This document shows positions 26,673-30,532 of a DNA stretch of 37,005 nt, piece by piece (the stretch's first letter is position 1; every line of letters begins with the position of its first letter). Made by a program: the position numbers and the translations under genes. The notes beneath the pieces were generated by a model. It was not told where the DNA came from, did no database searches, and worked only from the letters and a program-made list of their open reading frames with translations. Location: positions 1-37,005 of the forward strand of contig JABUTQ010000042.1 of assembly GCA_021443605.1 (NCBI GenBank). The letters are read 5' to 3'. The DNA comes from Bacteroidales bacterium. Lineage in GTDB: Bacteria; Bacteroidota; Bacteroidia; Bacteroidales; UBA932.

Positions 26673-26699
26673 ATTCGCGTTTTGGAAAAAAGGCAAGAA

Positions 26700-27176
26700 A
26701 TGAAATCGATAAAAGTCATCACTGCGTTGCTCGCTTCAATGTGCTTACTGAGCAGTTGCGATTTCTTCCGCAAAATTGTCGGCAAGCCCACCTCAGAGGA
26801 GATTGAAAAACTCAAGTTAGAGGTAGCCATAAGGGAGAGGGCTCAGCGCGATTCTCTCGCTGCTGCCAGGACCCTTACCGCGGATAAAGCCCCTATGGAG
26901 GCGGAGTTTGCGGCAAAAGACAATTTGGACAAGGAATATTATGTCGTGCTCGGAAGTTTCAAGGTTCCGGAAAATGCAGCCAAATTCAAAGATTATCTCG
27001 AGAAGAAAGGATACGAAATCAAAGAAGTGCGCTTCACAAATGGCTATAATGTTATAATGACTTGTGGAACAAATAATTATCGCGAGGCATACGGGAAGAT
27101 GGTGGAGTTTATGGAGTTTCAGTTCTGTCCCGATGACATCTGGATATACGGCAAATCACAGAATTTACACGAATAA
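26700..27176 (+). CDS. SPOR-domain lipoprotein
   Basis: The start is ATG 26700 (MKSIKVITALLASMCLLSSC), 158 residues; the TTG at 26682 is rejected because this ATG begins the signal. The lipobox is LSSC. A short charged helix (about 35-65) leads to a SPOR domain (about 79-154): YYVVLGSFKVPENAAKFKDYLEKKG, then YNVIMTCGTNNYREAYGKMVEF and DIWIY. SPOR domains bind denuded peptidoglycan at the septum, so the protein probably acts in cell division or wall turnover. It lies 15 bases before gcvT. Confidence 0.9.
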   Translation: MKSIKVITALLASMCLLSSCDFFRKIVGKPTSEEIEKLKLEVAIRERAQRDSLAAARTLTADKAPMEAEFAAKDNLDKEYYVVLGSFKVPENAAKFKDYLEKKGYEIKEVRFTNGYNVIMTCGTNNYREAYGKMVEFMEFQFCPDDIWIYGKSQNLHE

Positions 27177-27191
27177 ATCAATAAAACTATC

Positions 27192-28301
27192 ATGATTAAA
27201 ACAACAGCTTTTACAGAAAAACACATTGCTCTCGGGGCAAAGATGGCTCCATTTGCAGGTTATAATATGCCGATTGAATATGTCGGCATAAATGAAGAAC
27301 ACGCCACTGTACGCAATGGCGTAGGCGTTTTTGACGTTTCGCACATGGGCGAAATCTGGGCAAAGGGACCGAATGCATACAAGTTTCTCCAATATGTATC
27401 TTCAAACGATATCAGCGTCCTCTTCCCGGGCAAGGCACAATACACTTGCTTCCCGAATGGCAAGGGCGGCATCGTGGATGACTTTATCGTTTATTGCGTT
27501 GATAGCGAGACATATCTCCTTGCTGTGAATGCTGCAAACATAGAGAAAGACTGGAATCACCTTTGCGCAATTGCTCCCAAGTTCGATATGACTCCGGGCA
27601 AGGAGCTCTACAACGCTTCTGACGAAATCTGCCAGCTCGCCATCCAGGGCCCTAAAGCTATGGAAGTGATGCAGAAGATTTGCGACGAGGATGTGATGTC
27701 TATGGAATATTATACTTTCAAGAAACTCACCGTTGCAGGCATTCCTAACGCAATCCTCTCTACCACAGGTTATACCGGCAGCGGCGGATGCGAAGTTTAT
27801 GTTGCAAACGAAGACGGCGACAAGCTTTGGAAGGCCGTGTTCGAGGCAGGTGCAGAGTTCGGCATCAAACCTATCGGTCTCGGTGCACGCGACACCCTTC
27901 GTCTCGAAATGGGTTTCTGCCTCTATGGCAATGACATTGACGACACCACCTCACCTCTCGAGGCAGGTCTCGGCTGGATTACCAAATTCAACGACACAAA
28001 GGGCGACTTCATCGACCGCGACTATATGCTTCAGCTTAAAGCAGATGGCATCAAACGCAAACTCGTTGGTTTTGAGCTTGTTGACAAGGGTGTAGCCCGT
28101 CACGGATATGACATCTGCGATGCAGAGGGCAATGTAATCGGCCACGTCACTTCAGGTACAATGGGCCCTTCAGTGAAGAAGGCAATCGGTATGGGCTATG
28201 TAAACACTCCGTTCAACAAAGTTGACAGCGAGATTTTCATAAGCGTCCGCGGCCGTCTGCTCAAGGCAAAGGTTGTGAAGATGCCTTTCTACAAAAAGTA
28301 A
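27192..28301 (+). CDS. gcvT: Glycine cleavage system aminomethyltransferase (T protein)
   Basis: A 369-residue protein of usual length. GcvT takes the aminomethyl group from the H protein and makes 5,10-methylene-tetrahydrofolate plus ammonia. Motifs are [38 protein letters not shown], the folate-site segments [13 protein letters not shown] and [36 protein letters not shown] and [21 protein letters not shown]. The other glycine-cleavage genes are not in the window. It is the last gene of the run and is closed by a terminator. Confidence 0.97.
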
Positions 28302-28323
28302 ATTTTGTTCGACAATAGAGATG

Positions 28324-28385: not shown

Positions 28386-29678
28386 ATGAAAAGAATCGTA
28401 TCTCTGCTTGTTCTTGCACTGATTTCTGCCGGGCTTTATGCCCAAGACTTGGAATATATCCTCAAGAAGGATGTGGAATATCTCTGCAATGACCGTCTGC
28501 AAGGGCGCAAGGCCGGTTCGGATGGGGAAAGGCAGGCAGCTATGTACATCCACGGAAGGTTGACTAATGCCGGAGTCACAATGCTTTCCGGCAAAGATGG
28601 AGACAAGTTTTCGGTTGTGAATGAGAAGGGTGATACGGTTTCTTCCCGGAATGTTATAGGAATAATTGAAGGGTACGATCCAAGGCTCAGGGAGGAGTAT
28701 ATCGTGGTGGGGGCAAGGCTTGACCATCTTGGCACCAGCAAAATGACGTCAAACGGCAGGGTGGTGACGCAAGTTTATCCGGGGGCAGATGCCTCAGCAA
28801 GTGGAGCGGCTGCTCTATGTGCTGTGGCCGAGATACTTGCAGGAGAAAGGATATTTTTGCGACGCTCCATCATCTTTGTGGCGTTCGGCGCAAGCGAAGA
28901 GGAGTTTGCCGGATCAAGATATTTTCTGACAGGATTTTCTGATGCGCCGGCCAAAATCAAGATGATGCTGAATCTCGATATGCTCGGGCGCGGAAACGGG
29001 TCGAATCCGTTCAGGATATTCTCTCCCGTAAAAAAGAGCGATGTTCAATCGACAATGGCTTATATCCTTGAGAATGAGTCGGTAACCACCGTTCCTACAA
29101 TTGGCTCGGGGACAATAAATCCGTCTGATTATATCCCGTTCCACCAACAGAAGATTCCTGCCGTGATATTTTCCACCGGCATTTCAAAGGAGTACCGCAC
29201 CATCCGGGATGTGCCCGCCCTAATCGATTATTGCAATCTCGCGGCCGAATCAATCTATATTGCGGCATTTGTCAAATCTGTGGCACAGAAGGATTTGCTG
29301 TTTCCGTCTCGGGTTGCATCCGGTTTTGACGACATTGAGCCAGATTATTATGCACCATCCGATTGCGATGTCCGTCCAAAATTTTTCCACAACAGCGAGG
29401 CGTATTTCCTTGAAGCGTGGGTTTACAAGTATCTCAAATATCCCGATGCAGCGGTCGATAAAGGGATTCAGGGTATCGTGAACGTCTCTTTCATTATCGA
29501 GACCGATGGCAGGGTGACAAATGTGAAAGTGGAGAAGAGCGTCCATAAACTTCTTGATGATGAGGCGGTTAAAGTTGTTTCGGTTTCTCCCAAGTGGAGT
29601 CCGGGAGAGATTTCGAAAAAGAAGGTCCGTACCAAGGTTGTCATCCCTGTGGAATTCCGCCTCACCCGTGGTAGGTAA
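28386..29678 (+). CDS. M28-peptidase-like domain (probably inactive) fused to a TonB C-terminal domain
   Basis: The start is ATG 28386 (MKRIVSLLVLALISAG), 430 residues, with a signal peptide to about residue 20. Residues 30-300 follow the M28 zinc-aminopeptidase fold, but both zinc-ligand histidines are missing: the usual GAHYDH is GARLDH (R111) and the usual DYH...D is EYRTIRD (R271). The second Asp of GADD is Ala (A136). D135, E171-E173, D198 and the SDYIPFHQQKIP segment remain. Residues about 345-425 form a TonB C-terminal domain (VNVSFIIETDGRVTNVKVEKSVHKLLDDEAVKVV). It is probably a periplasmic binding or scaffold protein rather than a peptidase. No partner is adjacent. Confidence 0.82.
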   Translation: MKRIVSLLVLALISAGLYAQDLEYILKKDVEYLCNDRLQGRKAGSDGERQAAMYIHGRLTNAGVTMLSGKDGDKFSVVNEKGDTVSSRNVIGIIEGYDPRLREEYIVVGARLDHLGTSKMTSNGRVVTQVYPGADASASGAAALCAVAEILAGERIFLRRSIIFVAFGASEEEFAGSRYFLTGFSDAPAKIKMMLNLDMLGRGNGSNPFRIFSPVKKSDVQSTMAYILENESVTTVPTIGSGTINPSDYIPFHQQKIPAVIFSTGISKEYRTIRDVPALIDYCNLAAESIYIAAFVKSVAQKDLLFPSRVASGFDDIEPDYYAPSDCDVRPKFFHNSEAYFLEAWVYKYLKYPDAAVDKGIQGIVNVSFIIETDGRVTNVKVEKSVHKLLDDEAVKVVSVSPKWSPGEISKKKVRTKVVIPVEFRLTRGR

Positions 29679-29797: not shown

Positions 29798-30532
29798 ATG
29801 AAAAGAGTATGTGTGATAATAGGTATTCTTTGCGCAAGCATTTCGCTTTCGGCTCAGAATAATACTACGTCGCAAACGAGAACACAGTCAGAGCAGAGTA
29901 CCCAGAACGTGCAGGCTACAACAAGTAATGGAGAAAATGCCAAAAAGAATCAGAACCAAGTGAGAAACAATTGGTTCATTACTGCATCCGGCAATGCCCA
30001 GTTTTATTTTGGCGACCACAATTCACAAGCTACTTTCGGTCAGCTGATAGCTCCGGGTGCTACACTTGAAGGTGGTAAATGGTTCAACAACATCGTAGGT
30101 TTCAAGGCAGGTGTTCATTATGGGCTTTCAAGGGGCGCAACACAGAACGGTGCTCACTCTACAGGAGCTGAACTTCCGGGCAAAGGCGGTCCGGGCTATT
30201 GGCTCAAAACACAGAGATTCCCTTATATAAATGCCCAGGCAGATGTTGTTTTGGATATCATCAATATCTTTGCAAATGACCCTTACAGGACAGTCAAACT
30301 CTTGGGATATATCGGCCCCGGTGTTGCACACACTTGGGACAATCCCAAAGCAACAAGTTTCAGCGGCAATGCAGGGCTCACTTGCGCGATTGCCCTCACC
30401 CGCAATCTTGATTTCAACGTAGGAGTTGATGGCACTATCGTAGGCGACGGCTTTGACGGCGAGCCTGGTGGAAGGCCTCTTGAAGGCACTATTGCCCTCA
30501 ACCTCGGCCTTACTTGGAATTTCTTGAAGTAG
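29798..30532 (+). CDS. Probable outer-membrane beta-barrel protein
   Basis: A 244-residue protein with a signal peptide ending near LSAQ. A Gln/Thr/Asn-rich linker (about 21-57) precedes alternating amphipathic strands (WFITASGNAQFYFGDH, VGFKAGVHYGLSR, RFPYINAQADVVLDII, LDFNVGVDGTIVG) and a last strand IALNLGLTWNFLK with near-terminal aromatic Phe, typical of outer-membrane barrels. No peptidoglycan-binding OmpA end is present. The role is unknown. It stands alone, with a terminator after it and no clear exact promoter motif before it. Confidence 0.75.
   Translation: MKRVCVIIGILCASISLSAQNNTTSQTRTQSEQSTQNVQATTSNGENAKKNQNQVRNNWFITASGNAQFYFGDHNSQATFGQLIAPGATLEGGKWFNNIVGFKAGVHYGLSRGATQNGAHSTGAELPGKGGPGYWLKTQRFPYINAQADVVLDIINIFANDPYRTVKLLGYIGPGVAHTWDNPKATSFSGNAGLTCAIALTRNLDFNVGVDGTIVGDGFDGEPGGRPLEGTIALNLGLTWNFLK

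Follow-up and report, generated by a model that had tools for sequence, protein, structure and literature searches.

The window, by which we mean the whole 37,005-nucleotide stretch of Bacteroidales DNA analyzed here, carries a gene whose product joins an M28 pseudo-peptidase to a TonB C-terminal domain (TonB_C). The gene, its domains and its upstream neighbors are laid out as follows:

26682..27176, + strand: SPOR-domain lipoprotein with an LSSC lipobox (PF05036)
27192..28301, + strand: gcvT, aminomethyltransferase, between the SPOR and fusion genes (TIGR00528)
28386..29678, + strand: M28 pseudo-peptidase/TonB_C fusion gene, 430 amino acids plus stop (ORF, translation, Pfam)
28386..28442, + strand: signal peptide MKRIVSLLVLALISAGLYA, with putative cleavage before Q20 and no lipobox (sequence)
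28650..29249, + strand: Peptidase_M28 domain, residues 89-288 (PF04389, E 5e-25; best Foldseek matches the M28 aminopeptidases 1amp/1qq9)
29430..29663, + strand: TonB_C domain, residues 349-426 (PF03544, E 5e-18, far above the cut-off)

The fusion gene starts with the ATG at 28386 and its stop codon ends at 29678, so that the coordinates and the 430-residue length given in a preliminary description of the sequence were right. The TTG at 28305, which the ORF finder lists, is an unlikely start codon; the ATG at 28386 begins a typical signal peptide. Homology to the M28 family is clear from a PF04389 score of 88.7 against a cut-off of 21.3. A TonB C-terminal domain had likewise been proposed for the end of the protein, and PF03544 matched there; in addition to the profile match, the domain has the YP motif and the C-terminal strand of the family, and Y352-P353, G363, G375 and W404 are invariant in 69 aligned orthologues. 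Residue 29 (window 28470-28472) is Asp; both the fusion family and the outgroup M28 proteins have His (H29) at this position, with a conservation of 90% or more. The structure predicted by AlphaFold2 from 69 sequences had a mean pLDDT of 94 and a pTM of 0.77, with a weak hinge at residues 313-317 between the domains. In Foldseek searches M28 aminopeptidases came first, with a probability of 1.00, and the family profile also matched transferrin receptor 1 (TfR1) and nicalin.

The catalytic register was anchored by a phmmer alignment to the Aeromonas/Vibrio aminopeptidase (1amp/3b3t) and a profile alignment to 2ek8, and the numbering was fixed by named mutants among the structural matches, D118N (3b3t), M180A (3b35) and E151H. 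In the aminopeptidase, Zn1 is bound by D117, E152 and H256, and Zn2 by H97, D117 and D179 (PMC7522609, Table 1). The corresponding residues of the window protein are:

28716..28718, + strand: R111, at the position of zinc ligand H97 (alignment)
28791..28793, + strand: A136, at the position of bridging zinc ligand D117, the second D of GADD (alignment; D118N entry 3b3t)
28893..28898, + strand: S170, at the position of general base E151, and E171, the kept ligand E152 (alignment)
28977..28979, + strand: D198, the kept zinc ligand D179 (alignment; M180A entry 3b35)
29196..29198, + strand: R271, at the position of zinc ligand H256 in the YHTxxD motif (alignment, including 2ek8)

Thus, where an active M28 peptidase has the five zinc ligands H, D, E, D and H, the window protein reads R, A, E, D and R, and Ser takes the place of the general-base Glu. 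As only E171 and D198 are kept, one of three ligands is left at each zinc site. Arginines at both ligand-histidine positions and Ala at the second Asp of GADD had been noticed before, and the structure-anchored alignment agrees on all three, R271 falling opposite the His of YHTPND in 2ek8 in the profile alignment. The accompanying statement that the carboxylate positions remain is correct for E152 and D179, but not for the bridging D117 or the general base E151. The change of E151 to S170 is an additional one that had been missed. An M28 enzyme may stay active when only its general base is lost, since PDB entry 2anp, an E151H mutant, is titled 'functional'. Identity to solved M28 enzymes is only ~15-20%, which would be a ground for supposing that the register is wrong and the protein an active peptidase. 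However, the motifs align gap-free to those of the intact orthologue L057 (GAHIDH, GADDNASG, GAEELVVAGS, NLDMLG and YHSPRD), which is ~52% identical, and we give a misplaced register hardly any credence.

A full-length orthologue was present in all searched genomes of the same genus but one, the exception (G010) being incomplete. Most of these orthologues likewise have A136 and R271 and lack E170, whereas R111 is, within the genus, special to the window protein. Because nearly all genomes of the genus carry the orthologue and mostly share these changes, chance or sequencing error can be ruled out. A search for other M28-TonB_C fusions, as the preliminary description had advised, returned many: with a family-wide orthologue threshold of E<=1e-40, the fusion was found in 234 of 300 genomes and 16 of 26 genera of the GTDB family. 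It is absent outside this family in the two wider samples; in the order sample (393 genomes) all full-length fusions belonged to family f1, and in the phylum sample (396 genomes) the genome of the window was the only one with the fusion. The idea of a single odd protein is not borne out; the window protein stands at one end of a series that runs through the family. An artefact of sequencing or binning was considered and rejected, as most related genomes have the orthologue within the same block of genes; so was a chance fusion by misassembly, as all 69 members of the orthologue alignment match both PF04389 and PF03544. A scan of the genome contigs revealed only four distant M28 genes. An open-access literature search found no paper on an M28-TonB_C fusion, which does not disprove that one exists.

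The catalytic positions were then compared across a set of 97 distinct full-length orthologues. As the set was taken from those matches that scored best against the window protein, the intact share in the whole family may be higher. Position 111 is His in 47, Asn in 26, Arg in 23 and Tyr in one; position 271 is Arg in 52, His in 18, Asn in 17 and another residue in 10. D136 is found in 32 of the 97, E170 in six, E171 in 82 and D198 in 72. All five ligands are kept in 12 orthologues, and five of these 12 (L057, L105, L111, L118 and L121) also keep the general base and hence all six residues. D113, two residues past the lost His, is invariant in all 97. The outgroup M28 proteins are intact (HDEEDH) in 26 of 26 cases, including the same-family paralogues L046 (G030) and L049 (G013), and intact paralogues occur inside the same family and genus. 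Alignment with M28 homologues, a check that had been proposed, therefore confirmed the site losses and revealed that they recur in the family.

On a maximum-likelihood tree built without the catalytic columns, the minimum number of state changes was eight at position 111, nine at 136, five at 170, three at 171, five at 198 and seven at 271, with R111 accounting for four changes and R271 for seven; the tree is of a quick kind with several long rows, and these exact counts are soft. The intact members, in g5 and g40, are scattered among ligand-deficient clades. Together with the intact outgroup, the multiple state changes indicate repeated loss of catalytic residues, and the M28-TonB_C family very probably descends from an intact aminopeptidase. 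Judged from the tree, the R111 of the window protein is independent of that in g47 and very probably independent of that in the g40 clade.

That catalytic residues are progressively lost in the family could also mean that the gene is decaying without a function. For the M28 domain, dN/dS was 0.04-0.17 in close orthologue pairs, most of them ligand-deficient; the window protein has no close relative and its own dN/dS is saturated, so that selection was measured on these pairs instead. Such low values point to a maintained pseudo-peptidase rather than a decaying gene. The frame is open in nearly all listed family members, and fold positions and TonB_C are conserved, mean column conservation in the 97 orthologues being 0.59 for M28 and 0.69 for the more conserved TonB_C. 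Few columns are fixed in the outgroup and the ligand-complete fusions but relaxed elsewhere (D36, H111, D136, position 174 and Y270), with position 271, now mostly Arg, just outside this filter. Hence, decay is concentrated on the catalytic centre and not spread over the fold. Gene decay is largely refuted by this purifying selection, and its probability is close to negligible. Zinc ligands and general base are lost, the losses recur, and fold and sequence are under purifying selection in the close orthologue pairs, as expected of an M28-fold pseudoenzyme; the proposal of a pseudo-peptidase made in the preliminary description is thus strongly supported. We conclude that the fusion protein is a real, conserved bacterial M28 pseudo-peptidase joined to TonB_C.

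Each arginine falls within one of the former zinc sites, where a single carboxylate is retained: D198 for R111 and E171 for R271. In the orthologue rows, all 52 with R271 retain E171 and 21 of the 23 with R111 retain D198, and N111 goes with loss of D198 in 22 of 26 and N271 with loss of E171 in 12 of 17. This pattern suggests that Arg may replace the charge of the metal beside the one remaining carboxylate; the arginine side chains would take over the missing positive charge and hold the pocket together. R111 also accompanies loss of E171, so a charge-replacement account is not simple. Statistically supported covariation of Arg and carboxylate was considered and not upheld: striking as the raw tables look, correction for common descent leaves only two to three independent pairs and no significance for the R111/R271 pattern, so that the pairing stays a suggestion.

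The kept E171 and D198 and the invariance of D113 in 97 of 97 orthologues could instead mean that the site still binds one metal, or runs another reaction with fewer ligands, like the glutaminyl cyclases, one-zinc enzymes of the same fold that are among the Foldseek matches. Glutaminyl cyclases keep Asp, Glu and His ligands (PMC7522609, Table 1), whereas the window protein has one carboxylate per site and no His. Its remaining histidines (56, 114, 253, 335 and 387) are not at ligand positions, and positions 111, 136 and 271 vary widely across the family. We regard a surviving metal site as decidedly improbable.

In TonB and TolA, a membrane helix at the N-terminus is followed by a region spanning the periplasm and by a C-terminal domain, which binds the target through strand addition (PMC12204202). 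By inspection of its sequence, the fusion protein begins with a short signal peptide that looks cleavable (LYA|Q) and has neither a membrane anchor nor a long periplasmic spacer. An AxA-like signal end, scored with a permissive pattern, is present in 96 of 97 orthologues and a lipobox in none of the 97. The inner-membrane helix and spacer of an energy transducer are accordingly missing, and the M28 domain takes the place of the spacer. As only the C-terminal domain of TonB/TolA is present, the fusion protein would dock without transferring energy.

Most genomes of the genus encode two to four TonB_C proteins, typically a canonical TonB (~231-249 aa), with N-terminal membrane helix and spacer, and the fusion. 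In the window's genome assembly (G000, 88% complete), no TonB_C protein other than the fusion was found. A canonical TonB is found in most related genomes, and the lack of one here probably reflects the incompleteness of the assembly. The same assembly contains 30 plug-domain and four ExbD matches. A second TonB that retains its signal sequence as a membrane anchor would fit the presence of TonB_C, of ExbD and of many transporters, as well as the position of the fusion as the only TonB_C match in this incomplete assembly. Against such a transducer stand the AxA-Q signal, the missing spacer and the separate canonical TonB of most relatives, which make it very improbable. The suggestion in the preliminary description that the protein had turned to energy coupling is not supported on the same grounds, and energy coupling by the fusion protein is unlikely.

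In most related genomes the fusion gene lies in a conserved block consisting of the SPOR lipoprotein gene, gcvT, the M28/TonB_C gene and leuS. With some loci cut short, 76 of 97 loci had a recognizable SPOR gene close to the fusion gene, and 73 of 97 had gcvT. leuS (leucyl-tRNA synthetase) closely follows in most loci, as a cluster found in 84 loci and identified from one member. In genus g47, gcvT was not found between the SPOR and fusion genes, and the SPOR gene lies directly upstream of the fusion gene. The block argues for vertical descent of orthologous genes; taken alone, it points to no particular pathway. The window lacks leuS downstream and has instead a gene for a 244-aa protein, followed by der, which indicates a local rearrangement in the window lineage. 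This 244-aa protein (window 29798-30532) has a signal peptide, no Pfam match and, by eye, a barrel-like sequence.

The frequent proximity of the SPOR gene, and its direct contact with the fusion gene in g47, would suit a protein that is indeed a pseudo-peptidase but uses TonB_C for dimerization or for a cell-wall or lipoprotein partner, such as the adjacent SPOR lipoprotein, in an envelope or septal role. Denuded septal glycan is bound by SPOR domains (PMC6895207), which we count in favor of such a role. However, the block also contains gcvT and leuS, suggesting general synteny over one pathway, and the TonB_C domain of the window protein is identical at 43 of 89 conserved positions of same-genus canonical TonBs, including YP, Gly and W404 and residues of the last strand. 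A septal or dimerization role is hence possible but doubtful.

Taken together, a periplasmic binding or adaptor role with a TonB-type docking module appears most likely. The reading that we favor, with somewhat better than even confidence, is that of a periplasmic, metal-free M28 pseudo-peptidase that binds peptides or a protein partner and whose TonB_C docks without energy transfer. An intact aminopeptidase ancestor would have lost its catalytic residues many times while the M28 fold was kept, and the protein would now bind peptides or a protein partner instead of cutting. Least certain is the docking step: TonB_C may attach the protein to outer-membrane TonB-dependent transporters, at their TonB box or plug region, or else to a different envelope partner, since the partner could be something besides a transporter. 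Because an inner-membrane anchor is lacking, this docking would not transmit energy. Ancestral members with an intact site would, by docking in this way, bring an aminopeptidase to the transporter. A more specific version, which we consider rather unlikely, makes the protein a soluble, non-energized adaptor or TonB competitor at transporters, its former peptidase domain sensing imported peptides or the transporter and its arginines replacing the two zincs. If this version were true, one bacterial family would hold a natural series from active peptidase to adaptor. In any case, one family with one conserved locus offers a natural series from an intact zinc peptidase to a zinc-less pseudo-peptidase, and its many independent losses and repeated Arg-for-His replacements make the change from enzyme to binding protein testable. 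The family also raises the possibility that TonB C-terminal domains serve as docking modules on proteins unable to transmit energy.

M28-fold pseudoenzymes such as the transferrin receptor and nicastrin are already known. Transferrin receptor 1, nicalin and nicastrin are eukaryotic membrane proteins. They use the same fold as a binding or receptor module and are not peptidases; nicastrin has been discussed as a peptidase-derived substrate-binding protein (PMC2647162). Unlike these three, the fusion protein is bacterial, secreted and joined to TonB_C, and descent from them is not claimed. M28 is absent from the main text of a review of pseudopeptidases (PMC11266112). With the M28 aminopeptidases, namely AAP of Aeromonas proteolytica, SGAP of Streptomyces griseus and BSAP/YwaD, the fusion protein has in common the fold, the order of the motifs and Gly/Asp positions such as D113; it differs from them in the replacement of three of five zinc ligands and the general base and in the addition of TonB_C. 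The nearest M28 outgroup consists of ~500-aa proteins of the same order, in which M28 is followed by a C-terminal extension, often a predicted outer-membrane barrel, and in which, in contrast to the fusion, the catalytic site is intact in 26 of 26. Among five of these scanned, none matched TonB_C and three matched OMP_b-brl below E 1e-4. L135, L148, L046 and L049, and probably most of L131-L151, are such intact ~500-aa proteins with a weak C-terminal OMP_b-brl_2 match (up to 8e-9). An intact M28 domain with a barrel-like C-terminus occurs in many families of the order, apparently as a peptidase tethered to its own barrel. The canonical TonB of the same bacteria has a homologous C-terminal domain, ~44% identical over residues 328-426; its N-terminal membrane helix and spacer are replaced in the fusion protein by a signal peptide and an M28 domain.
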